Assembly (NCBI RefSeq): GCF_963678225.1
Contig: NZ_OY782764.1
Location: forward strand, 2,361,001-2,425,000
DNA: 64,000 bases
Direction: 5' to 3'
DNA from: an uncultured Cohaesibacter sp.
Lineage (GTDB): Bacteria; Pseudomonadota; Alphaproteobacteria; Rhizobiales; Cohaesibacteraceae
Shown: piece after piece, positions 17,729-60,764 of the stretch
Position numbering within the stretch: position 1 is the stretch's first letter
Layout: the number at the start of each line of letters is the position of its first letter
Translations under genes and position numbers: made by a program
Notes under the pieces: generated by a model
What the model saw: the letters and a program-made list of their open reading frames with translations, nothing else
The model's database searches: none
What the model was told of the DNA's origin: nothing

Positions 17729-18409
17729 ATGGACACGATGCTGGTGATTTTTGACTGCGATGGCACTTTGGTGGATACGGAAATCATCTGGGCCAAGGCC
17801 AGTCTCGAGATCTTCAAGGAAGAGGATCTCGATATGGATCTTGAGGCCTATAACAGCACCTATGCCGGCATGACCAATGCCGAGATCATCCAGCTCATCG
17901 AAGAAGACATCGAACGTTCCCTGCCGCATGACATCCTGCAGCGGATTACCGACCGCGCAACAAGCAAGTTGGACAAGCTCAAGGTGATTGAAGGCGCTCA
18001 CGAAATGCTGGACCAGCTCGAGTATCCGCGTTGTGTCTGTTCCAACACGGCCATGGAGCGGCTGGAGAGCAATATGCGTCTTGTCGATCTGTGGGACCGC
18101 TTCCGCCCCTATGTCTATTCCGCCGTTGAGGTGGGAACAAAGCTGCCAAAACCGGATCCTAATGTCTTCCTGCATGCTGCAACGGTGCTTGAGACCGATC
18201 CTTCCGAGTGCTTCGTCATTGAGGATAGCACCCATGGGGTTCAGGCTGCCTGTCAGGCAGGGATGCGCGTCATCGGCTTCATTGGCGCAAGCCACAGCTA
18301 CCTTGGCCACGGGGAACATCTGATGGATGCTGGAGCGGAAACGGTGGTGCGTCGCCTTGCCGACCTTCCGGCAACGATTGATGCCCTGAAAGACTGGCAC
18401 GAGCAATAA
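17729..18409 (+). CDS. HAD-superfamily phosphatase (phosphoglycolate-phosphatase-like)
   Basis: A 226-residue haloacid-dehalogenase-type hydrolase. Motif I is FDCDGTLVDTE with the nucleophilic Asp, motif II is in CVCSNTA, motif III is the Lys in KLPKPDPNVF and motif IV is IEDSTHGVQAA. The helical cap inserted after motif I is of the subfamily-I type, as in sugar-phosphate and phosphoglycolate phosphatases. The substrate cannot be told from sequence. The gene lies 112 bases after SURF1 and is followed by a GC-rich hairpin. Confidence 0.88.
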   Translation: MDTMLVIFDCDGTLVDTEIIWAKASLEIFKEEDLDMDLEAYNSTYAGMTNAEIIQLIEEDIERSLPHDILQRITDRATSKLDKLKVIEGAHEMLDQLEYPRCVCSNTAMERLESNMRLVDLWDRFRPYVYSAVEVGTKLPKPDPNVFLHAATVLETDPSECFVIEDSTHGVQAACQAGMRVIGFIGASHSYLGHGEHLMDAGAETVVRRLADLPATIDALKDWHEQ

Positions 18410-18464
18410 TCTGCTAAGATTAATCTGATAAATCTGTCAAGGGACGCGAAAGCTCGAGCATAAA

Positions 18465-18486
18465 AAGGGGCCGTTCATGGCCCCTT
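18465..18486. terminator. Hairpin after the HAD gene
   Basis: An eight-base perfect stem (18465-18472 with 18479-18486) with a six-base loop. An A-run lies on its left side, so the T-run is on the minus strand. It most likely ends the SURF1-HAD transcription segment but lacks a plus-strand T-run. Confidence 0.45.
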
Positions 18487-18680
18487 GTGCTATCATGACC
18501 CTTGAAATGGCAAAAAGTTAGCCGGCTCCTTCGGGCCCCCTCTAGCCCTAACGAACTATTAACCATAACAAGACAATTGCGGCGCTTTTACCTGCCTCAA
18601 ATTTTGAGGTGGCTGCGGTTTTACGATTTGTGAATGTCCCCTGTGGTTTGATTTGTTTGAATTGAGACAGGGGTGTTCAT

Positions 18681-19238
18681 ATGGCTCGTTGGGGTACTGG
18701 AGCAGCGTCTTTCAAAGGGCTGCTTCAGCGCATATTTTTTGGAATTGCCATAACGTTTTTTGCATGTGCGGGTGCGTTGTCTGCACATGCTTGGGCCGAT
18801 GAACTAGCATACCCTCAAGAAGACATTATTCTCACAATTTCCGGTTCCGTTTCAAACCAAAATGCCAAGGGCCTTGTTTATCTGGATCGTCAGATGATTG
18901 AGGATATCGGGCTGAGCAAGGTGATCACCCACACGGTCTATTCAAGCAAGGCCCATGAGTGGCACGGTGTTCTGATGCGAGACCTTCTCGCCTATGTCGG
19001 AGCCAAGGGCGATACCGTTGAGGTGCTGGCGCTGGATGGCTATCGAACCAAGATTCCCGTGCAGGACTTCTATGACTATGACGTGCTGCTGGCAACCCGA
19101 CAGGATGGTCGAGACTTAAGCATTCGCCGCCGCGGCCCCATCAGGATTATCTATCCGATCGACCATGACGAGTCTCTTCTTGATCCCAAATATACCTCAC
19201 GCTTCGTCTGGCAAATCGAGAAGATGATAGTGAAATGA
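18681..19238 (+). CDS. pruR: PruR-like periplasmic pterin-binding protein
   Basis: A 185-residue exported protein with a long signal peptide (cleavage likely near AHAWADE). The mature domain resembles the molybdopterin-binding fold of sulphite oxidase (ILTISGSV...GVLMRDLLAYVGA...VLALDGYRTKIP...RGPIRIIYPID). The mature part has no cysteine, so the molybdenum ligand of the enzymes is missing and catalysis is unlikely. In Agrobacterium tumefaciens, PruR is such a protein: it binds pterins in the periplasm and controls DcpA. Here the stop overlaps the start of a GGDEF-EAL gene by four bases, the same partnership. The assignment rests on fold and operon layout. Confidence 0.82.
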   Translation: MARWGTGAASFKGLLQRIFFGIAITFFACAGALSAHAWADELAYPQEDIILTISGSVSNQNAKGLVYLDRQMIEDIGLSKVITHTVYSSKAHEWHGVLMRDLLAYVGAKGDTVEVLALDGYRTKIPVQDFYDYDVLLATRQDGRDLSIRRRGPIRIIYPIDHDESLLDPKYTSRFVWQIEKMIVK

Positions 19239-21301
19239 AGTTCTATTCCAAAGTCTTGGCCATAGCCTATCTGATCTCGGTTGTTGGGTTGTTGCTACTG
19301 GAGCTGACACAGTTCCAGAAGGTAGACCGGTTGCGCGGACAGATCTCGCAGAGCTACGAGATGATTTCCGGGCGCGACGAGGGCATTCGGCTGGAGCTGG
19401 AATATCGACGCTTTCGCAGCATAACGGGCAAATATGTCTTCGGGGAAAAGATGCTGGAGATGAGTTCCGGTTCGGACACCGCCCAGAATGTCTCCCATGA
19501 AATGGTGATGCAATGGTTCGATATCCTCTGGAGCCGCGTGTTCAGCATCAATTCCATTGGCGTAGAGGTGCCCGAGGCTCAGCATGATAAATTCAACAGT
19601 TTGCTGATCAATCTGCGCAGCTCCTTGCGCGAAGTCGATCCCCTGGTGCAAAAACTCAGGCCGGGCAACCTCATTGCCTTCAGGGATATAGAGGACGCGC
19701 TTTCCCCTTATGAGGAAGACATCACCAGCATGGCCGCCGCCATCGCCCAAACGCGGGTCGAGCGAGCCTCCACGCTTCAGAAACGGTTGGACGCAGCGCT
19801 CGTCTCGATGGATACGCTCCTTGTAAGCTCAGCCGCAGGTGGCGTGCTTATCCTTACCCTGTTTGGGGTGGAGGCCTATCGGGCACGCAAGGAAGAAAGC
19901 CGGATCAAGGGCCGCGAAGCCCGGATACGTTTTCTGGCCGAGCATGACGCATTGACCGGCCTTGGCAACAGGTCCTTTCTCAATGAGAAAATGAACCGTT
20001 TCATTGAGTATGCAGACGCACACGGGGAAGGGTTTAATCTTATCCTCTTCGATCTGGACAAGTTCAAGGATGTAAACGACACCTTCGGGCATCCCATGGG
20101 AGACCGTCTTCTCAAGAATGCTGCCGCACGTCTGACAGCTATTTTTAGCGGTGAAACCGATATCGTGACCCGTCTTGGAGGCGATGAGTTCGCCGTGTTA
20201 CAGCGGGCAGACTTTGCCACCAGCGAAAAAGTGGTTGGAGAGGTGATCGACGCTCTCAGTTCTGCTTTTGAACTATCGGGCAATGATATCCGTATCTCAT
20301 CTTCCGTGGGAATTTCCCGATACCCCGATCTGTCCCATTCTGCTGATGAATTGCTGCGCGATGCGGATCTGGCTTTGTATGAGGCCAAGAAGCAGGGGCG
20401 GCAGAGATATTGCCTTTATGAAACGGGCATGAGCGTCGCGATCCAGAACAGGGTCTGTCTTGAGGCCGACCTGCGCCATTCGCTGCAATGTGGCGGCGAT
20501 GGACTGGAGGTCTATTATCAGCCGCAGGTCTCTACCGATCTGAAATCGGGCACATGTAAAGTCACCGGTGTGGAGGCCCTTGTGCGTTGGTTCCACCCCG
20601 ATCAGGGACAGATCCCCACGCTTGATTTTATCAATATCGCCGAGGATGCCGGGCTTATTGGCACCTTATCTGACTGGATCTTCAGGGAGGCCTGCACGGA
20701 TCTTGTCAACTGGCATCAATCAGGCTTCAAACTGCATCTCTCGATCAATCTCTCGCCGCACCAGCTCAACAACGACAATCTCGCTTCAGAGCTGATACAG
20801 CTGCTTGAGCGGACCGGCATCGACCCCAACTATCTCACCCTCGAAATCACCGAGAGTGTTGATGTGAAGGACACCCGCAAGGCCGCCAAAATGCTCTCGC
20901 AGCTATCCGCGCGGGGTATCTCTCTGGCGATGGATGACTTTGGCACCGGCTATTCCAACCTTGGTTATCTCAAGAGCCTGCCACTGGATATTCTCAAGAT
21001 CGATCGCTCTTTCGTGAAGCAGATTGAAGATAAGGAAGAAGACCGCAAATTGGTCCGGGGCATTATCAATCTGGCGCGCGGTATGGGGCTGAAAATCATC
21101 GCCGAAGGGGTGGAGACCGAAGAGCAGATGCAGTTTCTGCAGGCGCAGAAATGTCATACTTTCCAAGGCTATCTCTTTGGCCGTCCGATGCATAAATTGT
21201 CCGTGCTGGCCCTGCTTGCCAATGCCGAGCCCAACGTGTTCAACGAGGCAATTTCATTGCCGGACCTCTCCGATCCATCCGTGACGATTGTGGACCCCTA
21301 G
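19235..21301 (+). CDS. dcpA: DcpA-like dual GGDEF-EAL membrane protein
   Basis: A 688-residue inner-membrane c-di-GMP enzyme. Helix one (about residues 6-26) and helix two (about 190-212) bracket a mostly helical periplasmic domain of about 160 residues, a suitable docking site for PruR. The cyclase domain has FDLDKFKDVNDTFGH and an intact GGDEF at residues 315-319. The phosphodiesterase domain has EALVRW from residue 447, NLSPHQL, LEITES, DDFGTGYSNL, LKIDRSF and EGVET, so both halves look catalytically competent. In A. tumefaciens the PruR-DcpA pair sets surface attachment by shifting DcpA between synthesis and breakdown. The start overlaps the pruR stop (ATGA). Confidence 0.88.
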   Translation: MKFYSKVLAIAYLISVVGLLLLELTQFQKVDRLRGQISQSYEMISGRDEGIRLELEYRRFRSITGKYVFGEKMLEMSSGSDTAQNVSHEMVMQWFDILWSRVFSINSIGVEVPEAQHDKFNSLLINLRSSLREVDPLVQKLRPGNLIAFRDIEDALSPYEEDITSMAAAIAQTRVERASTLQKRLDAALVSMDTLLVSSAAGGVLILTLFGVEAYRARKEESRIKGREARIRFLAEHDALTGLGNRSFLNEKMNRFIEYADAHGEGFNLILFDLDKFKDVNDTFGHPMGDRLLKNAAARLTAIFSGETDIVTRLGGDEFAVLQRADFATSEKVVGEVIDALSSAFELSGNDIRISSSVGISRYPDLSHSADELLRDADLALYEAKKQGRQRYCLYETGMSVAIQNRVCLEADLRHSLQCGGDGLEVYYQPQVSTDLKSGTCKVTGVEALVRWFHPDQGQIPTLDFINIAEDAGLIGTLSDWIFREACTDLVNWHQSGFKLHLSINLSPHQLNNDNLASELIQLLERTGIDPNYLTLEITESVDVKDTRKAAKMLSQLSARGISLAMDDFGTGYSNLGYLKSLPLDILKIDRSFVKQIEDKEEDRKLVRGIINLARGMGLKIIAEGVETEEQMQFLQAQKCHTFQGYLFGRPMHKLSVLALLANAEPNVFNEAISLPDLSDPSVTIVDP

Positions 21302-21331
21302 AGCCACACGTCCGCTTGCCGGGAAATCAAT

Positions 21332-21369
21332 AAAAAAGCACGCAAGGAAAACTCCTTGCGTGCTTTTTT
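21332..21369. terminator. Strong bidirectional terminator between dcpA and gcvH
   Basis: A long perfect stem (left arm 21332-21348, right arm 21353-21369) around a four-base loop, with A-run and T-run flanks that serve both directions. It ends dcpA on the plus strand and gcvTH on the minus strand. Confidence 0.93.
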
Positions 21370-21388
21370 AGAATGTAGGTCTGGAGGC

Positions 21389-21763
21389 CTATTCCTGTTC
21401 GGCGACAAAGGCCTTGTAGGCATCCTCATCCATCAGGTCATCAAGCTGGCTCTTGTCTGCGATCTTGACTTTGAGGAACCATGCGCTGCTTTCCGCATCG
21501 CTGTTGACCAGTGCCGGATCTTCTTCAAGCGCATCGTTGACTTCGCTCACTTCGCCATCGATTGGCGCATAGACCTCGGAAGCTGCCTTGACGCTCTCAA
21601 CCACGGCGGCTTCGTCGCCTTTTTCCAGTTCCTTGCCAACTTCCGGCAGTTCGACGAAAACGACGTCGCCGAGCTGTTTCTGTGCGAAATCGGTGATGCC
21701 GATGGTGGCTACGCCGCCGTTGACTTCAACCCATTCATGGTCTTCGCTGTAATAGGTGGTCAT
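21389..21763 (-). CDS. gcvH: Glycine cleavage system H protein
   Basis: The H protein carries the aminomethyl group between the P, T and L proteins on a lipoyl arm. The 124-residue protein has the lipoylation site in [17 protein letters not shown], plus the usual [19 protein letters not shown] and the acidic C-terminal helix. It follows gcvT by 109 bases on the same strand and is cut off from anything downstream by the strong terminator at 21332-21369. The usual third gene, gcvP, is therefore not in this operon. Confidence 0.97.
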
Positions 21764-21872: not shown

Positions 21873-23009
21873 TCAGGGTTTGCGCACATAGCGTTGCGGA
21901 ACAAACGGCGTGGGGGCCACTTCTGCTTCCAAAGCGCGTTTGCGTACGGCAATTGTAACCTTCGTGCCTGGTTCGGCAAAGGCCGGCGGCACATAGCCCA
22001 TGGCGATAGGCGCTTGCAGGGTCGGAGCAAATCCGCCCGAGGTTACAACGCCAATGGCATTGCCATCCGTATCCTGAATTTCTGCTCCTTCGCGGGCTGG
22101 AGCCTTGCCGATGATGCGCAAGCCGACGCGAATGCGGGTTGGGCCATCTTCAAGCCCCTTCAATATGCGCTCTGAGCCGGGGAAGCCCTTGTCCTGCCTG
22201 CGGCTTTTCTGAATGGCCCAGCCAAGATCGGCTTCAGCCGGATCGATGCTGTCATCCAGATCATGGCCATAAAGGCAGAGGCCGCTCTCAAGACGCAGAC
22301 TGTCGCGCGCGCCAAGACCTGCCGGTTCGACTTCCGGCTCTGCCAGCAACAGGCGCGCCAACGCTTCGGCGTCTTCTGCCGCACAGGAAATCTCGAAGCC
22401 GTCTTCACCAGTATAGCCACACCGCGAAATGCCGACGGCAACGCCGTTGATTGCATCAGGTGTTTGCGACATGAAGGTGAGGGCATCGGCTTTTGGGGCA
22501 TGACGCTTGAGAGCGTCTACGGCCTTGGGGCCTTGCAGCGCCAGAAGAGCCTTGTCATCAAGACGCGTAAGGGAAATGCCATCTGGCAGATTGGCTCCAA
22601 GGAAAGCATAGTCCTTTTCCTTGCAGGCGCCGTTGACCACCAGCATGAGCGTGCCGTCCAGAGTCGGATCGCCCGGGCGGGTCACGATGAAATCGTCAAT
22701 GATGCCGCCGGTCTCGTTGAGGAACACGCTATAGCGCATGCGGCCCGGAGCCAGTTTGGTAAAGGCAGACGGGGTCAGGGCTTCCAGCGCCTTGGCAGTC
22801 GTCTCGTGATCAGGGCCTTGCAGCAGGGCCTGCCCCATGTGGGATACATCAAACAGAGCCGCGCTTTCGCGGCAATGGATATGCTCAGCCATGATGCCTG
22901 CCGGATAGCGCACAGGCAGGGCGTAGCCTGCAAAATCAACAAGGCTTCCGCCCAGTTCTTCATGCAGATCAAACAGGGGTGTCTTTTGGGCGCCACTCAG
23001 GTCGGCCAT
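21873..23009 (-). CDS. gcvT: Aminomethyltransferase (glycine cleavage T protein)
   Basis: GcvT transfers the methylene group from the H-protein arm to tetrahydrofolate and releases ammonia. From the ATG at 23009 it has 378 residues: N-terminal KTPLFDLHEELGG, FAGYALPVRYPAG, the conserved ALFDVSHMGQ, RCGYTGEDGFEI and ARDSLRLESGLCLYG. The open frame extends far upstream, but that extension reads through the riboswitch and is not protein. Expression should rise when glycine binds the tandem riboswitch in the leader. Confidence 0.97.
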   Translation of the reverse strand: MADLSGAQKTPLFDLHEELGGSLVDFAGYALPVRYPAGIMAEHIHCRESAALFDVSHMGQALLQGPDHETTAKALEALTPSAFTKLAPGRMRYSVFLNETGGIIDDFIVTRPGDPTLDGTLMLVVNGACKEKDYAFLGANLPDGISLTRLDDKALLALQGPKAVDALKRHAPKADALTFMSQTPDAINGVAVGISRCGYTGEDGFEISCAAEDAEALARLLLAEPEVEPAGLGARDSLRLESGLCLYGHDLDDSIDPAEADLGWAIQKSRRQDKGFPGSERILKGLEDGPTRIRVGLRIIGKAPAREGAEIQDTDGNAIGVVTSGGFAPTLQAPIAMGYVPPAFAEPGTKVTIAVRKRALEAEVAPTPFVPQRYVRKP

Positions 23010-23127
23010 AGCGTCTCTCTTTCTGTTGCAGATGGCCAAGTCCGGTTTTCGGAAAGGGGCCTTCTGTGGTTGCACGGGTGCTGAGTGGAAGGCTCCTTGT
23101 ATGAAGCGTCCATTCGCATCGGTGCCT

Positions 23128-23361
23128 CCTCTGTCACAGAACCTGAGAGATTTCCCGCTCCCTTTCTCTCCGGCCAATGATGCTGGAACAGATTGGGGCA
23201 GCTGCTTCCTTCGGTGAGCTTTCAAGGCGGCGTCCCATAAGGGGCCCCGTCTTTGGGCTGCTTTCCAGAGTTCGCTAGTCGGGCGGTCCCTTGTGCCTGA
23301 GAGTTTCCGAGGCGGTTGCTCCTTCGGCGCGCGCAGTCCCCGATGGGCCGAACGCTCTCCC
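23128..23361 (-). promoter_or_regulatory. Tandem glycine riboswitch upstream of gcvT
   Basis: Read on the minus strand, two glycine aptamers lie in series. The first runs from about 23361 (GGGAGAG) through CCGAAGGAGC (23318-23327) to CTCTCAGGC (23295-23303). The second contains CACCGAAGGAAGC (about 23204-23216) and ends with ATCTCTCAGGTT and CAGAGG at 23128. The short linker between them is typical of the cooperative two-aptamer class. About 119 bases separate the second aptamer from gcvT. Glycine binding normally turns expression on, so that the cleavage system is made only when glycine is plentiful. A TTGACT at 23454-23459 (minus strand) may be the -35 element. Confidence 0.92.
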
Positions 23362-23678
23362 GCTGACTTTGAGCCAGAGCGCAACAAACGCATCCAGCTG
23401 CAGGAGCGCGATAGGTTCTCCTACCCGACAAAGGTGCTTGGCGGTGCGTGTAAAGTCAAGTCGCCAATGAAGTCTTTCGGTTAGCGAGCAGGACAAAATA
23501 TGTGTGAAACGCAGGAACAGGCCTACCCGGAGTTGTTCGCCAGGCCGAATGCTGCCCTATGGGTAGGCAAAAGGGGAGAATCGCGCGCAGTTTGCGTCCA
23601 TCTCCCCAAGGCAGGATGTGTGTCATACGAGGCAAGGGAAAGTCATGAAAGCATCATGACAAGAGCAGGGCCGGTCTC
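23362..23678. other. Non-coding stretch with a long inverted repeat
   Basis: Between the riboswitch and the methyltransferase gene. It contains the presumed gcv promoter and an eight-base perfect inverted repeat (23521-23528 with 23561-23568) around a 32-base GC-rich insert. No convincing gene is seen; a short plus-strand frame (23500-23682) has no family-like features. Confidence 0.45.
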
Positions 23679-31674: not shown

Positions 31675-31928
31675 AAATGGGCCGCATCGGTTCGGTTGCT
31701 GGAGCGATTCCATTTTGTGATGGAATGTCCGATTGGCCATGGACAGACAAGAAGTGATGCTGCGAATAACGCGCGTGTAAGGGGAAACCTTGCCTTCATA
31801 ACAGCCTAAGCAGCCTTTTCCTTTTTAAAAAGGCAGGAAATTGAGAATTACGCCTTGTATGGCGCAAAGCAAAATTTTAACTATGGTGCACTGCATCCAC
31901 ACGGATGCTGAATGAGAGAGGGCCCCTG

Positions 31929-34900
31929 GTGAATCGCGTATCCGTCCTGATCATATCTCTTCTGGCCATGATCCTTGGCTTGGTGGCCACGTCTGCCGCA
32001 TGGGCCGTGGAAGCTGTCGATGTCAATGCCGACACCAAAGTGCTCAAGCTGGACAATGTGGTCGAGTTTTATGAGGGCGATGAAGATCGTTTGCAGGTGT
32101 CGACCGCGCCCGGCCCTGATGGCATCGTTCGCCGCATTGAAGTGCGCGCCCGCCAGCAAGGCTCTGTGCCGGGCTGGTTCGTGTTTGCGCTTGCCAACAA
32201 TACGGACCGCCAGATTGACCGCTATCTGGTCGTGCCCCATTTTCAGCTTTCTGGCTCCGGTCTGCTAAAGCCCGATCTGGGAGACCGGCGGGTCTATTCC
32301 ATTTCCACCTCGCAAGGCTTTGCGCCAGAGCGTATCCCCGATACAGAGGCTGACGTGTTTCGCGTCACGCTCGACCCGGGCAATGTGGTTACCTTCGTTG
32401 GCGAGCAAAGCTCCAAAAGCCTGACGAGCCTCACTCTTTGGCAGCCCGAGGCCTATAAGGACTATGTCAACAGCTACACCTTTTATCGCGGCATCGTGCT
32501 CGGTATTGCCGGCCTGTTGGCACTGTTCCTGACGATCCTGTTTGTCGTCAAGGGTGCAGCCATGTTCCCGGCGGCGGCCTTATTGGCTTGGTCCGTGCTC
32601 GCCTATCTGGCGATCGACTTCGGTTTCATGGGCCGGTTATTCGATATTCCAACCGCGCATGAGCCAATCTGGCGCGCCGTGGCTGAGGTCGCTTTTTCCG
32701 CCTCCATTCTTATTCTGCTCTTTACTTATCTCACGCTGCATCGATGGCATGTGCGCTATCTGCACGCCTCCGGCGTCTGGTTGCTGTTCCTCATCGTTGT
32801 TCTTGGCGTAGCGCTTTATGATCCGTCCCTTGGCGCCGGTATCGCACGTCTGTCCATGGTGATCACGGCAGTCGCCGGTTTTGCCGTTATCCTATATCTC
32901 TCCTATACCGGATTTGACCGGGCCATCATGTTGATCCCGACCTGGATTCTGATGCTGCTCTGGTTGCTCGCTGCGGGTGCTGCCGTGGCCGGTGTGCTGG
33001 ACAATGATCTGGTGCAGCCTGCGCTCAATGGTGGCTTGGTGCTGTTGGTGCTGCTCTTCTGCTTCACTATCATGCAGCATGCCTTCTCTGGCGGCATTCT
33101 CGCACAGGGCATCGTGTCCGATAGCGAACGACGGGCGTTGGCCATTGTCGGCTCGGGCGATATCGTCTGGGACTGGGATGTCCCGCGCGATCGCATGCAT
33201 ACCTCCCGCGAGGCGGAAAAGCTTTTGGGCCTCAAGCGCGGTGCTCTGGAAGGGCCGGCCCGCGATTGGCTAGATCTGATCCACCCGCAGGATAAAGACC
33301 GGTTCACCGCCGTGCTGGATGCCATTATCGAGCAACGTCGCGGACGAGTGAATCTTGATTTCCGCTTGCGCGCTGAAGACGGTCATTATCACTGGTTCCG
33401 CCTGCGGGCGCGCCCCGTTGTTGGCACCGATGGCGAAGTCGTGCGTTGCGTGGGCACTTTGCTGGATACCACCAACCAGCGGACCGCCGAAGAACGTATG
33501 CTCCATGATGCTGTGCATGACAATCTTACCGGGCTGGCCAACCGCGAATTGCTCTATGACCGCCTGACCGCGGCCATGAACCGCACCAAGGCCGAAGGAG
33601 CGGCGAGACCCGCTACGCTTCTGATCGACATCGACAATTTTCGCGATATCAACGACAATTACGGCCTGTCTGTCGGTGACTCCATTCTGCTCACGGTCGC
33701 CCGCCGACTGACCCGTTTGCTCAAGGTGCAGGATTCGATTGCGCGCTTCTATGGTGACCAGTTCGCCATTGTACTTCTGTCTGAACAGCAGCCCGAGCGT
33801 ATTGCTGTCTTTGCCGATAGTGCCCGCAAAGTGTTGCGCGCGCCGATCGTTTTCGGCGACAAGGAACTGAGCCTGTCGGTTTCCATCGGCATTGCTATTC
33901 ATGATATTCAGGCCCATATGACCGCTGCCGATGTGGTCAATGACGCCGAGCTGGCACTTTATCATGCCAAGCGCATGGGCGGGGATCGTATCGAACCCTT
34001 CCGGCCCTCTCTGCGCCAACAGGGCAAGCTGCGAGGTCCGCTAGACAAGGATCTGCAGGCTGCCATCGAACGCAATGAGTTCGAGATCGTCTATCAGCCG
34101 ATCGTGGATCTGGAATCGCGCATGATTCAGGGCTTCGAAGCACTGACCCGCTGGCATCACCCGCAGCGCGGGCTCATTCCGCCGTCTGAATTCATTCCGG
34201 CAGCCGAGCGCACAGGCTATATCCTGCCGCTTGGGCTTTATGTCATGGAGCAGGCTGCTCGCCAGCTCAACCAGTGGCAACAGGCGCTGGAGGGCATGGA
34301 CCGGCTTTTCATGAGCGTGAATGTGTCGTCCCAGCAGCTGCTGCGCCATGACCTTATCAATGATGTGAAAACCATCCTGTCACGCTCCAGCGTCAATGCC
34401 GGTACCTTGAAGCTGGAACTGACCGAGAGTCTTGTGATGGAAAATCCCGAATATGCTTCTCAGGTACTGATGCGCCTGCGTCAACTGGGGGCAGGGCTTT
34501 CTCTGGATGATTTCGGCACAGGCTATTCGTCGCTGTCCTATCTACAGCACTTCCCGTTCGACACGCTGAAAATTGACAAGAGTTTTGTCGTCAGTGACAA
34601 GGGCACGTCGCAGGTTATCTTGCAATCCATCGTCAAGCTTGCCCATGATCTGGGGTTAAGCCTTGTTGCCGAAGGGATTGAAAGTGAGCAGTCTGTCGAG
34701 CAATTGAGCACCATGGGCTGCCCGTTGGGACAGGGATATCTGTTTGGCAAACCGCTCACAGCTCAGGATGCCGAAGTCCTGTTGACCAAGCAGATTGATC
34801 TGGCCCGTCAGATGCAGCAGGAAATGCAGGCTCGCCGCCAGCGCGCCGCGCAGGAAGCTGCTGCTCAGAAAGCTGAGGAAGAACGCCGTCTGCGCGAAGA

Positions 34901-36548
34901 AAAGCGCCGCAAGGACGCCGAGGAGCTCGAACGTGCTCAGACCCACGCCCGGGAAGTTGCTGCCCAAGGGTTCAAAACCCCTGAACCTGTGCGAAAGCAA
35001 CCTGAACAAGCCAAAGCTGAGCCTACGGCCAAAGAGGCAGCTGAAGACGATTCTCTTGAAGCGATGCTCGCCGAGAGTCTGGCTGTTGATCTGGAAGACG
35101 CGACAGACCAGACAGGCAACGCAGGCAGTAGCAATAGAGAAGAGAAGGCTGCGGCTGGCAAAGCGGCGCAGTCTTTCGAGCTGAAGGCCGGTGACATTAC
35201 CAGAACGGCCCGTCAAACGCTTTCCAGCCCTTTGCCTCGAAAAGCTGCCCCTCAAGCAGACGCTGTGCAAGGGAAGGCAGAAGAGAGCACGGAACCGAGG
35301 CGCCAGAACGCTTCGCAGCACGCCGCGCCGCAAACGCCTCATCCGCATCAACCTTCTGCCAAAGAGGCAAAGAAGGATGCCGTGGCATTCGATCTTCAGT
35401 CATCTCTTGAAGAAGCGGTTGGCTCCGCAGCTCAAGAAGCGGTTGCCGTCATGTCCGGCCAAGAGGCGGACGAGAAGACAAAGCCCGGAAAGGCCGCTGG
35501 TCGCTTCGGCGCTTCATTGCGCGAGAAGATGAGTGGCGCCAAATCTCTCCTCTCCAATCCGTTCAAGAAGACGGACGATGCAAAGGATGGCTCCGGCGCT
35601 TCCCAAACGGATGCTCCAGTTCCCATGCCAAAGGTTGCAGCGTCCAATCGACCTGCCGCGAACAAGGCGCAGCAGGGCAAAGGTCCGCGCAGAGGCCCGC
35701 AGAAAGGCACCCCTCAGGGTGGTCCGGCTGGCAAGGGCCAAGGTGGCAATAGACAGGGCAACGGGCAGGCCAATCGACAAGGCGCGGCTCAGGCTGGCCG
35801 GGGTCAGGCGGCACAAGGACAGCCAGCGCAAGGCCCGGCTTCACAGGCTATAGGCCATCAGGGGCAGGGGCCTGCTCATTCTCAAGGCCAACGCGATGCC
35901 CAAGGGCGTTCTGTGGCTCAAGGTCAACCCAATCAGGCAGGCGCAGCTGCTGGTCAGAACCGTCCGGCAGATCCTTCTCAGGGCGGCCCGCGTCAGGGTG
36001 GCGCTTTGGGCGGGCCTCAAGGCAATAACCAGTCTGGGCCAAGAATTGCTCAGCAAGACACTCAGCGTGCGCCCGCTGCTCATGCTGCGCAAGGGGCTCC
36101 GGCGGCGAATGCTGCAGACGAGAGCAAAGCGCAATCTCCAGCGCACTCAAAGCCGCAGGCTCAGCCGCTGCCACAACAACAAGCGCCAGCATCCGTTCCT
36201 GTCGAGCCCGTCCGCTCTCCTGAGGGAAAATCGGCCTTGATGGAAACCACGGCAGCGCCAGCCGTAGATGCGGGCGTGGCCTCTGAGCCCAAGCCCGCTG
36301 CAGGAAGTCATCCTGTCGTGGCAGAAGCAGAGGGTACCACGCAGCCGGTCGTGCCGGAGCAAACAGTATCCGAGCGTCAGCCGGAAGGGGGCAGTGCTGC
36401 AGGTCCGTCTCAGTTGTCAGACGCCGAGAGCGCCAAGGCTCAGGACGATGGCGAATTTCCGTTCAACATGCCGGATCTTTCCAATATTGATCAGGATATT
36501 GCATCGGCCATTCAGCAGGCCATGCGGGGAGGCGGCAAGAAGTCCTGA
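31929..36548 (+). CDS. Giant 7TM-PAS-GGDEF-EAL protein with disordered tail
   Basis: A 1539-residue membrane c-di-GMP phosphodiesterase. Layout: signal peptide (1-28); periplasmic domain (about 30-180); seven membrane helices (about 185-390), as in 7TMR-DISM receptors; PAS/PAC (about 400-525); a cyclase domain whose motif is YGDQF (608-612), so probably inactive; and an EAL domain with EALTRW at 737, DDFGTGYSSL, LKIDKSF and EGIES, so probably active. A charged helical segment starts at 960 (EEERRLREEKRRKDAEELER). About 530 residues rich in Ala, Gln, Gly, Pro and Lys follow, with many QGQ-type units (about 1230-1420). The end is FPFNMPDLSNIDQDIASAIQ plus a basic tip. The GTG at 31929 follows GAGGG; an ATG at 31905 is possible. 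Confidence 0.9.
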   Translation: MNRVSVLIISLLAMILGLVATSAAWAVEAVDVNADTKVLKLDNVVEFYEGDEDRLQVSTAPGPDGIVRRIEVRARQQGSVPGWFVFALANNTDRQIDRYLVVPHFQLSGSGLLKPDLGDRRVYSISTSQGFAPERIPDTEADVFRVTLDPGNVVTFVGEQSSKSLTSLTLWQPEAYKDYVNSYTFYRGIVLGIAGLLALFLTILFVVKGAAMFPAAALLAWSVLAYLAIDFGFMGRLFDIPTAHEPIWRAVAEVAFSASILILLFTYLTLHRWHVRYLHASGVWLLFLIVVLGVALYDPSLGAGIARLSMVITAVAGFAVILYLSYTGFDRAIMLIPTWILMLLWLLAAGAAVAGVLDNDLVQPALNGGLVLLVLLFCFTIMQHAFSGGILAQGIVSDSERRALAIVGSGDIVWDWDVPRDRMHTSREAEKLLGLKRGALEGPARDWLDLIHPQDKDRFTAVLDAIIEQRRGRVNLDFRLRAEDGHYHWFRLRARPVVGTDGEVVRCVGTLLDTTNQRTAEERMLHDAVHDNLTGLANRELLYDRLTAAMNRTKAEGAARPATLLIDIDNFRDINDNYGLSVGDSILLTVARRLTRLLKVQDSIARFYGDQFAIVLLSEQQPERIAVFADSARKVLRAPIVFGDKELSLSVSIGIAIHDIQAHMTAADVVNDAELALYHAKRMGGDRIEPFRPSLRQQGKLRGPLDKDLQAAIERNEFEIVYQPIVDLESRMIQGFEALTRWHHPQRGLIPPSEFIPAAERTGYILPLGLYVMEQAARQLNQWQQALEGMDRLFMSVNVSSQQLLRHDLINDVKTILSRSSVNAGTLKLELTESLVMENPEYASQVLMRLRQLGAGLSLDDFGTGYSSLSYLQHFPFDTLKIDKSFVVSDKGTSQVILQSIVKLAHDLGLSLVAEGIESEQSVEQLSTMGCPLGQGYLFGKPLTAQDAEVLLTKQIDLARQMQQEMQARRQRAAQEAAAQKAEEERRLREEKRRKDAEELERAQTHAREVAAQGFKTPEPVRKQPEQAKAEPTAKEAAEDDSLEAMLAESLAVDLEDATDQTGNAGSSNREEKAAAGKAAQSFELKAGDITRTARQTLSSPLPRKAAPQADAVQGKAEESTEPRRQNASQHAAPQTPHPHQPSAKEAKKDAVAFDLQSSLEEAVGSAAQEAVAVMSGQEADEKTKPGKAAGRFGASLREKMSGAKSLLSNPFKKTDDAKDGSGASQTDAPVPMPKVAASNRPAANKAQQGKGPRRGPQKGTPQGGPAGKGQGGNRQGNGQANRQGAAQAGRGQAAQGQPAQGPASQAIGHQGQGPAHSQGQRDAQGRSVAQGQPNQAGAAAGQNRPADPSQGGPRQGGALGGPQGNNQSGPRIAQQDTQRAPAAHAAQGAPAANAADESKAQSPAHSKPQAQPLPQQQAPASVPVEPVRSPEGKSALMETTAAPAVDAGVASEPKPAAGSHPVVAEAEGTTQPVVPEQTVSERQPEGGSAAGPSQLSDAESAKAQDDGEFPFNMPDLSNIDQDIASAIQQAMRGGGKKS

Positions 36549-46354: not shown

Positions 46355-47377
46355 CTAGCGCCAGCGGCCAACCATTTCCACGAAGCCGTCGCCGGTGACT
46401 TCCTCGCCATACATATAGCCGTTGACATTGATCTTGCCGTCAAATTTGATCAGGTTGCCAATCTTGGAAACCACCTCGCGCTGCTGGTAGGGCAGGCTGA
46501 TTTGCAAGCAAGTCTCGAACGGTTCGTGGGAAAGAACCACATGACGCGGATAACGACGCCCCGAAAGGCGACTATCCATGAAGTCGTTCATTTCCAGCGG
46601 GTCAATTTTCTCGACAATATGGGTGCCGTCAGGCAGCACCACCGTGCAGCAGGTATCCTGCCGATTGCGAGCAAAATCCCACAATTGCGAAACACTGAGC
46701 CGGATGCCGTTGTCGAGCTGCGGATACAGATTGATCCACTGACGCTGTTCCAAATTCCGGTCCAGACTGAAGCGGCGTGGCAAGGCACCGAACTGGCGAT
46801 TGAGCCACATGGCACCGGTTACGCTTTGTGGTTTGCCCATGAGTTCCACATTGCCGGAAAGCTGAATGGCCGGCAGGGCGAATTTATATTGCTGTGCGCC
46901 AAGGAAGTGGAAATTGCCTTCCCCGTTATTCACCAGGATGGGCGCGTTGACGTGGCCGGAGAGCTCGATGGACGCATCGGGGAGCTCGGCATTGATCGTC
47001 AATTCGTTGCCGCTGCCATAGATATCCAGCTCACGAGTCGAGAATTTGAGAGACTGCTCACTGATCATGATGTCCTTGAGAGGAACAGTATTCTCCACCT
47101 CGCGAATCCAGCCGGTGTCCTGATCCATCAGGCACATGCTGACAGAAATCTGGGCCTCGCTGCCCCGTTGCTGGATGATGAGTAGATGCACACGGAAACT
47201 GAAATGCTTTCCGCCGCCACGCAAGCTGGTCGAGAATTGCCATGATTCCAGAGGATGCAGGCCACCATGCCAAGCGAGGTCATGGGCGAGGCTTGCATTG
47301 GATTTTTTCACCATCTTGCCGCGATAGGGGGCGTGAAAGGTGATGTCTTGGGTTGTTTGAGCCTTATTGAGTTGCAT
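46355..47377 (-). CDS. AttH/CrtC-like lipocalin-domain protein
   Basis: A 340-residue protein of the AttH (hydroxyneurosporene synthase CrtC-like) fold, which has two calycin beta-barrels. Recognisable parts are HPLESWQFSTSLRGGGKHFS at the N-terminal domain and GAMWLNRQFGALP, matching the GxxWxDRQ(W/F)G motif of the family. The ATG at 47377 follows GGAGG six bases upstream. No signal peptide is seen. Family members include carotenoid hydratases, the Agrobacterium attachment-locus protein AttH and uncharacterised hydrolases. A carotenoid role is not supported, since no crt genes are nearby. Its upstream region shares an AACTATGTA motif with the TetR-SDR intergenic region. Confidence 0.78.
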   Translation of the reverse strand: MQLNKAQTTQDITFHAPYRGKMVKKSNASLAHDLAWHGGLHPLESWQFSTSLRGGGKHFSFRVHLLIIQQRGSEAQISVSMCLMDQDTGWIREVENTVPLKDIMISEQSLKFSTRELDIYGSGNELTINAELPDASIELSGHVNAPILVNNGEGNFHFLGAQQYKFALPAIQLSGNVELMGKPQSVTGAMWLNRQFGALPRRFSLDRNLEQRQWINLYPQLDNGIRLSVSQLWDFARNRQDTCCTVVLPDGTHIVEKIDPLEMNDFMDSRLSGRRYPRHVVLSHEPFETCLQISLPYQQREVVSKIGNLIKFDGKINVNGYMYGEEVTGDGFVEMVGRWR

Positions 47378-47956
47378 ACAGGACCTCCCTCTAAGCAAAT
47401 TCCGGTCTGCGACGCAGTTGCCGCTGTTGGATGAAGCGCCAGGGTTGGCTGAAGGGCGGTTCGGAAAAGGTGTCTCGCTGGCTTTCATTGGCGCACGAGA
47501 AATCCGGGGACCTGTCTAAGTCTCCGACGTCCTCCTAACATCGAAGCTGATGACTCATGCGCGAAACTGGTACGACGAAAAGGATTGCCGACACTTGTAC
47601 GAACACGCCTTGCACTGCCTCCCTGAGCAGTTCTGCTTATTTTTCAAGGTTTGCCTTCTGCTTACAGCTTGTAGAACAACAATGTGTCATAAATATTATT
47701 GCCACTTGACTTTGTAAGCGATGTGCATTGGTCGTTAGAGTTCGACTCGTGATACCCTGCAAGTATATGTTAGCGCTTAACTATGTAGTTTAGTCAAGGA
47801 AAATATTGTCACGTGAGCGATTTTTAATTTTGTACTGTTTCCGGCATAAATGATTGCTATATCAACAGGCAAAATACTGGTGTTCATGCTATAAAAATGG
47901 ACAATAATGCAAGAATACCAGTATGGTGGTAGGCCTGAAATTATAGCTCTTATAAG
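47378..47956. promoter_or_regulatory. AT-rich upstream region with one TetR-module motif
   Basis: A 579-base gap between the lipocalin-like gene and the end of the SDR gene, rich in A and T from about 47640. TTAACTATGTAGTTTAG (47777-47793) contains an imperfect dyad and the AACTATGTA core (47779-47787) found twice in the SDR-TetR gap. The spacing to the lipocalin start is about 400 bases. No other gene is evident. Confidence 0.5.
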
Positions 47957-48901
47957 TTAGTCTTGACTCAAGAAAGAAATACCAAGCAGCCTCTCGCTCT
48001 CGGCCCACAAGCGCGCTGAGCGCTCCAGATCCAGTGCATGGGGGGCGATGTGGCTGAGCGAAACCGGCCCGCGCATGTCGAGAAAGCCGGTCGGGCCATA
48101 ATAGGCGCCTCGCTGCGCTTCCAAACCGGCGGCCGCTAATACGGTAGGGACTGCGCCCAATGCGCTTGGTTGGGCAATAAGAGCATTGAGAGGCTTGTAG
48201 ATCATGTTCAACAGACCTGTCGGGCCGGTGCTTTGTAGGTTAGTGTTGGAATATCCCGGATGGCAGGCAATGGCGATGGCCGGGCTCTGCTCTTTGGCAA
48301 GACGTCGATCCAGCTCAAGGGCAAACATCAGATTGGCCAACTTGCTTTGCGCGTAAGCCTTGGTTGAGGAGTATTTCTTTTCTCCCATCAGATCGCCAAA
48401 ATGAATGCGGCCCAGACGATGGGCGATGGAAGAGACCTGAACCACGCGCCCGCCTGCCGCTTCCACCCGATCCAACAGCAGGCTGGTCCAGAGAAAATGA
48501 CCCAGATGGTTGGTGCCGAACTGCAATTCAAATCCATCTGCTGTCTGACGCTTTGGTGTCTGCATGATGCCCGCATTGTTGATGAGCCCATCGATGCGCT
48601 GAGTGATCGCGCGCACGCCATCAGACGCCCTACAGATGCTGGAGCGGTCTGCCAGGTCAAGGGTCACCAGGTTGATTGTGCCGGTGCAAGTGGCCTCGAG
48701 TATCATGCGCGCCGAGGCGGCTTTTTGTGTCGACCGGCACGCCAATATGAGGTCGGCACCCTTACGTCCAAGCATCTGAGCAGCCTCAAGGCCGATACCG
48801 GAGTTGCCGCCAGTGATGACAAAGCACTTGCCGGAAAGGTCCGGCAAGCGGTCTTCACGCCAATTTTCAATCTTGTTTTGTGAAATAGTGTGTTCGTTCA
48901 T
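47957..48901 (-). CDS. Short-chain dehydrogenase/reductase
   Basis: A 314-residue SDR enzyme. The cofactor motif is TGGNSGIGLEAAQMLG, followed by NNAGIM and the catalytic YAQSKLANLMF (YxxxK), with Ser in VVQVSSIAHRLG. The layout fits the retinol-dehydrogenase/WWOX-like group that reduces or oxidises hydrophobic alcohols and ketones, usually with NADP(H). The start is taken at the ATG 48901; an upstream TTG (48952) would add a 17-residue extension. It is divergent from a TetR gene, its probable repressor, and lies upstream of the lipocalin-like gene on the same strand. Confidence 0.92.
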   Translation of the reverse strand: MNEHTISQNKIENWREDRLPDLSGKCFVITGGNSGIGLEAAQMLGRKGADLILACRSTQKAASARMILEATCTGTINLVTLDLADRSSICRASDGVRAITQRIDGLINNAGIMQTPKRQTADGFELQFGTNHLGHFLWTSLLLDRVEAAGGRVVQVSSIAHRLGRIHFGDLMGEKKYSSTKAYAQSKLANLMFALELDRRLAKEQSPAIAIACHPGYSNTNLQSTGPTGLLNMIYKPLNALIAQPSALGAVPTVLAAAGLEAQRGAYYGPTGFLDMRGPVSLSHIAPHALDLERSARLWAESERLLGISFLSQD

Positions 48902-48961
48902 ATCAAAATGTCCAAAGGGCTTGAGAGGAAATAACGGAGAGGGTACGGTCAAAGATCAATA

Positions 48962-58949: not shown

Positions 58950-59456
58950 ACTTGCGGTCCCTTTCTAAGATTGGCAGCCAGCGTTCCCCTCCTCAGGTCC
59001 GTGCATGACTGCTGGTCGACATAAGCAAAATATCGTACAGCCTGTTCTGATCAACCGGGCAAATCGGCACACTGCAGGTCTCGCGAAGCCATGCGCCAAA
59101 GTCAACGGCCGGTCTTGCCAGGCAGGGCTAGTAAACAGGCTGAATGGTTACAGCTCTCTGAATATTTGGCAAGAGACAGATTGTAGCACTTCTAAGAAAT
59201 ACGGATTCCCTTTGAATCGCAAGAGGGTAGAATAACCGATCTGCTAGCAGCCGTCATGCATGATGCAGATCAGCGTTAACCAAAAGAAAAAGCCCAAAAG
59301 CAAAGGTTGTTGCCGGGAAAATTTGTATATCGTTAAGTTTAATCCTTATTGTTCTCTGCAGAGCAAAAGAATTAATGCAGTGAAAATAGCGTTTTAAGAA
59401 GATTTTATCATCTCTGTCCTATAACGGTGGCTGAATTGTGCGACGGGACGGGAAAT
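58950..59456. other. Intergenic region upstream of the GGDEF gene
   Basis: A 507-base gap between divergent genes, AT-rich from about 59250. No gene is supported; short plus-strand frames (58833-59024, 59005-59235) have no family features. Confidence 0.45.
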
Positions 59457-60764
59457 ATGAACGCTAGTTCAAACGTGCCTGAAAGGGACCTTTACGCGAT
59501 CTATGATGACCTGAGTGATGGTGTCATGATCATGGGGCCTACAGGCAAAGAACTTTATCGAAACAAGGCCATGAAGCGTCTTCCGGACCATCTGGAAAAC
59601 CGCCTCATGAGTTTTGTCGGGATCGATGAGTGCATTTGCGAGAAAAGTCGGCACGAAAAACTTGTCTCCCGCTCTCAAATGGAAGGCTGGAGCTTTAATT
59701 GCTATGCCTATGGCTCGGGCAAGTTGATTCTCGTAAAATTTGACGACCAGCTGGGTAAACAGATCAAGGCCTTGCGGGCGGAATTCTCTGATGCGATCCG
59801 TGATGGCATGCCTGCGGCCTCAGCTGCAATGCAGGTGCTGCGCAATCACGTCAATTCACGCTGGGTTGCCATCGGTAGCCTCGATTTCAAGACCCGGAGC
59901 GTTGTGTTCGATCTGTGCTATGATGGTGCGCATCTTCAGGCAAACCGGCTGCCTTCGCTCAAATGCTTTGCTGATAGCAAGCCCTGTGAACATAGTCCTC
60001 TGATGACGGCAGATCTCTCGGCGCATTTCATCAATAGTGACGAAATCGCAGCTTACGGCATTGGCCATGTGATCGGCATGAGCATGCACAATCATCGCGA
60101 TGAATGCGTGGGCTATGCATTGCTGGCCGATGAAGCCGAGCCAAACCAGATGAGCCAAAGCGTTACGCTGCTCAAGGAACTGGCCGTGCTCTATGGTCCC
60201 TATTTCGAGGTCAGTTCAGCCCATCAGAAGGTGAGCAAGGCCGTCGCTGATGCCAACACGGATGTTGTGACCGGTCATGGCAACCGGCGGGCGCTGGAAA
60301 GCTATTTGCAAGGATGCCTTGATGAAATGCAGCGTGAGCAGGACGAGTCCGACGTGCTCACCCTGTTTGACAGCAGGGCCATGCGCAATTCTGTTGTTAT
60401 GTTGCTCGATCTGGATGGCTTCAAGCGGGTCAACGATGTTTTGGGCCATGGGGAAGGCGACAGGGCCTTGCGCCTCGTTGCCGATAGTCTGCAGGAAATA
60501 GATAGCAACAGCCGTGTCTTCCGTTTTGGTGGGGACGAGCTGGTACAGGTCTTCCCGCGCGCGGGCAATCTGGATTCCGATGAATTGCGTCTCTATGTCA
60601 ACGATGTTGAGAGAAAGCTCGATAGCCACGGTTTCAAGGGGCTGGGGCTCAGCCTCGGGATCGTTCACCTATTCGAAGGCGACGGCTCCTACGCGTCGCT
60701 GATGACCCTTGCAGATGCGCGTATGTATCATGAAAAGCGCCTGCGTTCGGTTGCTTTCATTTAG
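59457..60764 (+). CDS. PAS/GAF-GGDEF-type diguanylate cyclase, GGDEL variant
   Basis: A 435-residue cytoplasmic protein. An N-terminal PAS-like part (LYAIYDDLSDGVMIMGPTGK), a GAF-like middle (SRWVAIGSLDFKTRSVVFDL to GYALLADEAEP) and a C-terminal GGDEF domain with LLDLDGFKRVNDVLGHGEGD are present. The active-site motif reads GGDEL at residues 358-362. The final Phe is usual, so activity is uncertain, though the catalytic residues are kept. The ATG at 59457 is preferred to a GTG at 59427 because GGGA lies close upstream. Its stop overlaps the MocR stop. Confidence 0.88.
   Translation: MNASSNVPERDLYAIYDDLSDGVMIMGPTGKELYRNKAMKRLPDHLENRLMSFVGIDECICEKSRHEKLVSRSQMEGWSFNCYAYGSGKLILVKFDDQLGKQIKALRAEFSDAIRDGMPAASAAMQVLRNHVNSRWVAIGSLDFKTRSVVFDLCYDGAHLQANRLPSLKCFADSKPCEHSPLMTADLSAHFINSDEIAAYGIGHVIGMSMHNHRDECVGYALLADEAEPNQMSQSVTLLKELAVLYGPYFEVSSAHQKVSKAVADANTDVVTGHGNRRALESYLQGCLDEMQREQDESDVLTLFDSRAMRNSVVMLLDLDGFKRVNDVLGHGEGDRALRLVADSLQEIDSNSRVFRFGGDELVQVFPRAGNLDSDELRLYVNDVERKLDSHGFKGLGLSLGIVHLFEGDGSYASLMTLADARMYHEKRLRSVAFI

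Follow-up and report, generated by a model that had tools for sequence, protein, structure and literature searches.

We find that a 64,000-nucleotide stretch of an uncultured Cohaesibacter genome (hereafter, the window) carries a PruR-DcpA gene pair, and that the pairs of this genus represent a new version of those already published. Such pairs are already well described: the available part of PMC13259868 reports more than 5500 unique sequences, groups in which Asn102 is replaced by Asp, and Vibrio without PruA. On the comparisons below, we think it fairly probable that Cohaesibacter harbors a PruA-independent variant, in which DcpA would still be controlled from the periplasm and the PruR pocket and docking site would be retuned. 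A literature search found no publication on Cohaesibacter and pterins, and the genus may figure in the supplements of the primary PruR-DcpA papers.

The gene pair is conserved across Cohaesibacter

The preliminary description identified the pair as PruR-DcpA and reported that the stop of the first gene overlaps the start of the second by four bases. We confirm the overlap (Table 1), which suggests coupled translation. The pair is present in 17 of 18 Cohaesibacter genomes, the sole miss being a genome that is 64% complete. We found one pair in the host genome (4.94 Mb, two contigs). Twelve proteins around and including the pair occur in the same order in C. marisflavi and C. haloalkalitolerans; the neighbors, as read from their translations, include ctaB, ctaG, coxIII, surf1, gcvH, gcvT, and rnhA. 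Because the pair, its order, its overlap, and its neighbors are kept in these two species, the arrangement is not due to chance. More broadly, a long open reading frame (ORF) lies directly downstream in 215 of 224 loci with a PruR-type ORF.

Purifying selection acts on both genes, which fits a maintained function. We estimated substitution rates against C. marisflavi with a simple Nei-Gojobori script. For PruR, dN is 0.049 and dS is 0.378 (dN/dS about 0.13); for DcpA, dN is 0.014 and dS is 0.407 (dN/dS about 0.03). PruR is 90% identical to its C. marisflavi counterpart and 59% identical to that of C. haloalkalitolerans. The latter value makes it the least conserved of the twelve proteins, the others ranging from 72 to 93% in C. 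haloalkalitolerans.

The hairpin that follows dcpA looks like a terminator for both strands, although the number of such sites that the scan reported (3) is no higher than in shuffled sequence (3.1). A second hairpin (18465-18486) is scored as a terminator only when the minus strand is read. A scan of positions 18300-21500 for sigma-70-like promoters returned four sites, all on the minus strand (2.6 in shuffles), and none for pruR.

Table 1. Features of the pruR-dcpA region (window coordinates).
Feature	Position	Strand	Basis
pruR: predicted exported sulphite-oxidase-fold pterin-binding protein, 185 aa	18681..19238	+	Window ORF; PF00174, 43.4 bits; 7kos, E 5.5e-32
Putative PruR signal peptide, residues 1-39	18681..18797	+	Hydropathy peak at residues 18-36; probable AWA/DE cleavage, by eye
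PruR D119-G120-Y121, equivalent to Agrobacterium N102-D103-Y104; Asn to Asp in 17/17 Cohaesibacter, Tyr retained	19035..19043	+	
PruR R155, equivalent to Agrobacterium F138; Arg in 17/17 Cohaesibacter, Trp or Phe in most others	19143..19145	+	
PruR W177, equivalent to Agrobacterium W160, the pterin-binding Trp; conserved	19209..19211	+	
ATGA four-base overlap of pruR stop and dcpA start	19235..19238	+	
dcpA-type gene: membrane GGDEF-EAL protein, 688 aa	19235..21301	+	Window ORF; Pfam; hydropathy
DcpA periplasmic domain, about residues 27-190	19313..19804	+	Between hydrophobic windows; profile match, E 3.8e-13
D48-EGIRLEL-E56, site of the WX7E motif; without Trp; R52 where most others have Gln	19376..19402	+	Alignments
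GGDEF domain, GGDEF motif intact; without canonical RxxD I-site	19937..20407	+	Pfam; motif reading
EAL domain, usual motifs present	20471..21187	+	Pfam; motif reading
Hairpin, 18 pairs and T-runs, between dcpA and opposite-strand gene	21331..21370		Scanner on minus strand; plus strand read from sequence

The small protein is of the pterin-binding PruR type

The small protein matches PF00174 (43.4 bits against the Pfam cut-off of 24) and is the only match to this family that we found in its own genome. Its 185 residues are in keeping with the PruR size of about 170. Its sole Cys, residue 29, lies in a hydrophobic leader, with none beyond Ala39, such that the mature protein lacks the Cys that would ligate molybdenum. 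Hydropathy served to judge the leader, and inspection by eye gave the AWA/DE site; together they point to a putative secretion signal. By sequence, this is in agreement with the initial account of an exported, Cys-free protein of sulphite-oxidase fold.

Among solved structures, the closest relatives are pterin-binding proteins rather than catalytic sulphite oxidases with a molybdenum-binding Cys. Two entries titled Pterin Binding Protein score best, 7kos (E 5.5e-32) and 7rkb (3.1e-28), followed by 7kp2 (1.1e-14), a putative pterin binding protein, and 7kom (5.4e-10), whose name gives only its domain. There were six matches in all, the fifth at E 1.1. According to the part of PMC13259868 available, 7KOS is PruR of Agrobacterium tumefaciens and 7KP2 that of Vibrio cholerae. 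The window protein is 41% identical to 7kos over 143 residues, and the equivalents of the pterin-contacting Tyr104 and Trp160 (Y121 and W177) are invariant among the 17 PruRs of the genus. By these comparisons, the small protein belongs to the PruR type.

A quick phylogeny of 199 proteins of the PruR type places the 17 from Cohaesibacter in one group, with a support of 99. This group nests within a larger one that comprises mostly Asn102 proteins with Trp-bearing partners, although its exact place there is unsure. Two Cohaesibacter species (L033 and L069) have TCC where most PruRs read TPW, which puts a Cys in the place of that Trp. We take these cysteines to be near the place of the molybdenum ligand in the enzymes.

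Relatives of the 7kos sequence also occur in 639 plasmid records, of which 265 are from Klebsiella and 399 are predicted to be conjugative. Their partners were examined in one Phyllobacterium and one Rhizobium record, and in both the relative adjoins DcpA.

The partner retains a DcpA-related periplasmic domain

The second protein is, as first described, a membrane GGDEF-EAL protein with a periplasmic domain. Pfam finds GGDEF at 135.6 bits and EAL at 238 bits. Hydrophobic windows span residues 2-28 and 188-214 and are separated by a stretch of about 160-165 residues. The motifs GGDEF, EALVRW, NLSPHQL, EITES, DDFGTGYSN, KIDRSF, AEGVET, and FQGYLFGRP, which we take to be the catalytic ones, are all present. 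The residue nine positions before GGDEF is Gly, and the protein thus appears to lack a canonical RxxD I-site, presumably the usual site of inhibition. At a cut-off of E 0.001, the host genome has 28 matches to this protein, one being the protein's own gene. The remaining 27 all start at residue 186 or later, and are thus mainly to GGDEF or EAL.

To compare the periplasmic region, we took 141 PruR-linked partners in pairs with Asn102 and the partner Trp and made a profile of their first 225 residues (E-values for 1000 sequences). The region matches this profile at E 3.8e-13, and all Cohaesibacter partners match it at 6.6e-10 or better. Ten control stretches, taken from this genome upstream of GGDEF domains, gave E 0.11 at best. 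By profile comparison, the domain is thus still related to DcpA. Together with 7kos and 7rkb as the best solved relatives of its neighbor, this match upholds the PruR-DcpA identity of the pair.

The relationship is a distant one. DcpAs of Phyllobacterium and Rhizobium, which adjoin PruRs 69-70% identical to 7kos and match the profile at 1e-40 or better, served for direct comparison. Their periplasmic domains could not be aligned by BLAST with that of the window protein (E 0.9 or more), and a Cohaesibacter-only profile scored them at E 0.016 and 54. Identity in the GGDEF-EAL parts is 43%. The name DcpA is also used for a different protein in Mycobacterium smegmatis, as far as the accessible part of PMC8846402 describes it.

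Residues of the pocket region and the proposed docking site are altered throughout the genus

From the 224 loci, we retained 215 with a partner ORF of at least 300 residues, 207 of which were distinct and 199 readable at the WX7E motif; only these 199 were used. Since partner ORFs were taken from their longest start, overlaps of 31 or 80 bases result at L162, L264, and others, where a shorter start fits. Crude typing of partners at the 224 loci gave 65 GGDEF proteins, 90 kinases, and 69 untyped.

All 17 Cohaesibacter pairs have Asp102 and Arg138 in PruR (Agrobacterium numbering) and Asp48 and Arg52 in the partner. The position of the WX7E Glu is Glu in 12 of these pairs and Asp in 5, and in every partner the first Trp after the initial transmembrane segment is the one next to FDI-WSR. 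Read from the alignment, D48-R59 and FDI-WSR are the most conserved periplasmic stretches in the genus. Neither canonical feature is strictly defining: the available part of PMC13259868 places WX7E in the vast majority of DcpAs and describes PruR groups in which Asp replaces Asn102.

A simple Trp-to-Arg reading of the WX7E site proved wrong. Both the alignment and the profile set E56 on the motif Glu, so that counting back eight residues makes D48 the Trp site. An alternative alignment, with a five-residue insertion, puts Met42 at the Trp position; there is no Trp in either alignment.

Among the 182 pairs from outside Cohaesibacter, 156 have Asn102, 152 have the partner Trp, and 141 have both. 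Asp102 occurs with Trp in 11 pairs and without it in 15. Asp102 and Arg138 occur together in ten, nine of which lack the Trp as aligned; the partner in the tenth (L251) is not DcpA-like. Four pairs that combine Asn102 with Arg138 retain the partner Trp. Raw counts look as if, in general, N102D or F138R covaried with absence of the partner Trp. We dropped this idea, as tests of independent pairs on the tree gave it no support; with 4 and 1 supported pairs, significance was out of reach. The idea of one matched set of changes (PruR Asn to Asp and Phe to Arg; DcpA Gln to Arg and Trp to an acid) remains attractive, although these tests give it no support beyond the genus.

A second PruR-like group with Asp102 and Arg138 is found in several families of the order, in some cases beside other PruRs in the same genome. 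Like Cohaesibacter, this group (L159, L164, L165, L167, L169, L173, L176, and L178) has these pocket residues and a GGDEF-type partner without Trp as aligned. Against the canonical profile, its partner domains score between E 2e-10 and 0.4, weak matches at best, and, unlike Cohaesibacter, each of the eight genomes yields a PruA match (E 1e-60 or better). An approximately unbiased (AU) test does not reject a single clade of Cohaesibacter PruRs and the other D102/R138 group. Two separate origins of this pocket were considered and set aside, as the joint tree is slightly better (p-AU 0.62). Since a group that may be joined to Cohaesibacter has PruA, the pocket change and the absence of PruA are not tightly linked.

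PruA was not found in Cohaesibacter

The preliminary description had noted that PruA is not in the window and had pointed to the rest of the genome. In the window, a short-chain dehydrogenase (SDR) at 47957-48952 reads TGGNSGIG, not the PruA motif. In the genome as a whole, E. coli FolM as a query returned eight weak SDRs only, none with the Arg motif. FolM also led us to a PruA from Ferirhizobium litorale (TGAARRIG), and neither query recovered a pruA elsewhere in the host genome. Using the latter query on 31 relatives, with every candidate from Cohaesibacter scored, we found no PruA (TGX3RXG) in the 18 Cohaesibacter genomes (best E 5e-24 or weaker). In 17 of them the top hit carries Gly in place of the PruA Arg; for the remaining one (G203) there was no locus. 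Matches at E 1e-36 or better were detected in 12 of 13 outgroups, all 12 with the Arg motif, and the sister genus (G044) has a match at E 3.3e-75.

The sister genus also has a PruR with Asn102, Tyr104, and Phe138, and the corresponding segment of its GGDEF-EAL partner reads WSASNGRIE. A second PruR-like protein in the same genus, with Asn102, Phe in place of Tyr104, and Arg138, adjoins an apparent kinase.

We scanned 199 genomes of the order for PruA, scoring up to 14 candidates per genome at a cut-off of E 1e-30 chosen here. Matches were missing from 35 genomes, six of them being the Cohaesibacter of the sample, and present in 164 of the 193 others. Of 41 other genomes of the order with a PruR at E 1e-15, three lack a PruA match and all three have Asn102. 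In a sample of the class, PruA accompanies PruR in 73 of 77 genomes other than the host, at a PruR cut-off of 1e-12 that may admit some catalytic relatives. PruA is also common without PruR, so co-occurrence alone says little. A strict link between pocket change and PruA absence fails in both directions: three genomes (G012, G080, and G115) have a D102/R138 protein as their only PruR match together with PruA, and three others (G058, G064, and G157) have an Asn102 PruR and no PruA match. Phenylalanine hydroxylase, a user of tetrahydropterin, is absent from all 31 genomes. PruA-bearing neighbors are among these, so this absence is uninformative.

A proposed PruA-independent circuit and its alternatives

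The claim that Cohaesibacter has the same pterin-to-c-di-GMP circuit as Agrobacterium is only partly supported. The identity of the pair stands; sameness of the circuit is undermined by the failure to find PruA in 18 genomes, the missing WX7E Trp, and changes at two positions of the pocket region. The circuit may still be pterin-based, but would not be of the PruA-fed Agrobacterium type.

In the PruA-independent variant that we favor, PruR would be exported and, like its homologues, would hold a small, pterin-like molecule in a sulphite-oxidase pocket that is truncated and unable to take the molybdenum cofactor. It would then contact the periplasmic domain of DcpA and shift the balance between c-di-GMP synthesis and breakdown. 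What the sequences show is the genes, their homology and linkage, the changes fixed in the genus, the failure to find PruA, and purifying selection; binding of a ligand, contact with DcpA, the direction of control, and the nature of the ligand are inferred. In Agrobacterium, pterin-bound PruR favors c-di-GMP breakdown and limits attachment (PMC13259868, in part). The Cohaesibacter circuit would run without PruA and with an altered pocket region (N102D, F138R) and docking segment (no Trp; D48, R52). Given these features, the ligand is probably not PruA-made tetrahydropterin, and could be a different pterin, for example a dihydropterin left unreduced or a pterin of extracellular origin. Several results weigh against this reading: the BLAST comparison with the Rhizobium and Phyllobacterium DcpAs, the tests of independent pairs, the D102/R138 group with PruA, the three genomes of the order with Asn102 and no PruA match, and the lack of PruA in V. 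cholerae. An unrelated reductase might also replace PruA.

A more specific form of this proposal, which we put forward tentatively, is a switch of ligand. Here, the Asp102/Arg138 pocket would read a different pterin, either unreduced or supplied by neighbors, and Asp48 and Arg52 would replace the WX7E docking contact and recognize the new pocket. If true, the genus would show which residues set ligand and partner specificity.

Alternatively, the Agrobacterium circuit may operate after all, with tetrahydromonapterin made by an unrecognized reductase (another SDR or a broad dihydrofolate reductase) and with residue changes of little consequence. The host genome has 14 SDR matches, and the motif was read only in the best hits and the eight FolM matches of that genome. 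Dihydrofolate reductase is named as a possible route in the available part of PMC13259868, and the pocket Tyr and Trp are kept. However, D102, R138, D48, and R52 are invariant in 17 species amid much variation, which is hard to call drift, and the Arg motif of pteridine reductases is found in none of the 17 best SDR hits. The lack of phenylalanine hydroxylase in the 31 genomes also speaks against it, if weakly, as PruA-bearing neighbors lack the enzyme too. We regard this explanation as unlikely.

It is also quite improbable that ligand sensing has been lost, with PruR serving as a constitutive partner or chaperone of DcpA and a D102-R138 salt bridge closing the pocket. The co-occurrence of two opposite charges in the pocket region, the failure to find PruA, and the low conservation of PruR relative to its neighbors would all fit. 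The salt bridge is a guess, though; Tyr104 and Trp160 are invariant in the genus, and another group with Asp102 and Arg138 has PruA. Finally, an ordinary molybdoenzyme subunit or sulphite-oxidase-type catalyst with incidental adjacency, as the PF00174 match and the annotation of plasmid relatives as molybdopterin-dependent oxidoreductases might suggest, is counted as refuted by the Cys-free mature part, the pterin-binding proteins as best solved matches, and the retention of the pair both in the genus and, as a long downstream ORF, at 215 of 224 loci.

Comparison with known systems

Cohaesibacter resembles A. tumefaciens, as described in the available part of PMC13259868, in gene order, in the exported, Cys-free protein of sulphite-oxidase type with its pocket Tyr and Trp, and in the two-transmembrane GGDEF-EAL partner with the usual motifs. 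It differs in having no PruA that we could find, in N102D and F138R, and in the absence of the WX7E Trp. For the periplasmic domain, this comparison was made with the Rhizobium and Phyllobacterium DcpAs. Like V. cholerae, it pairs PruR with DcpA in an organism without PruA; unlike V. cholerae, which has two pairs (PMC13259868, in part), it has one pair as far as we found, with genus-wide changes of pocket and docking site, 7kp2 being the only V. cholerae protein compared. PruR-DTB pairs, which have a histidine-kinase partner in the same partial source, have the same kind of PruR and a related periplasmic domain, but the output here is GGDEF-EAL rather than a kinase.

The available part of PMC13259868 lists the real ligand of PruR and the working of PruA-less systems as open questions of the field. 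Cohaesibacter offers a natural experiment: purifying selection maintains its single pair, no PruA was found, and both sites thought to matter carry fixed changes. Comparing its PruR with canonical ones could reveal the roles of Asn102, Phe138, and WX7E.

Other features of the window

The window holds two further GGDEF proteins. One (31905-36548, plus strand) has 1547 residues with PAS, GGDEF, and EAL domains ending near residue 950; for the last 600 residues, Pfam gives nothing at E 0.001. The other (59427-60764, plus strand; 76 bits) lies about 40 kb from the pair. A 376-residue ORF (46355-47488, minus strand) has no Pfam match at E 1e-6. A Glycine riboswitch (RF00504, 45.6 bits; 23274-23372, minus strand) lies inside the 5' end of ORF 21873-23393, gcvT by reading, and the true start of gcvT is therefore probably further downstream.
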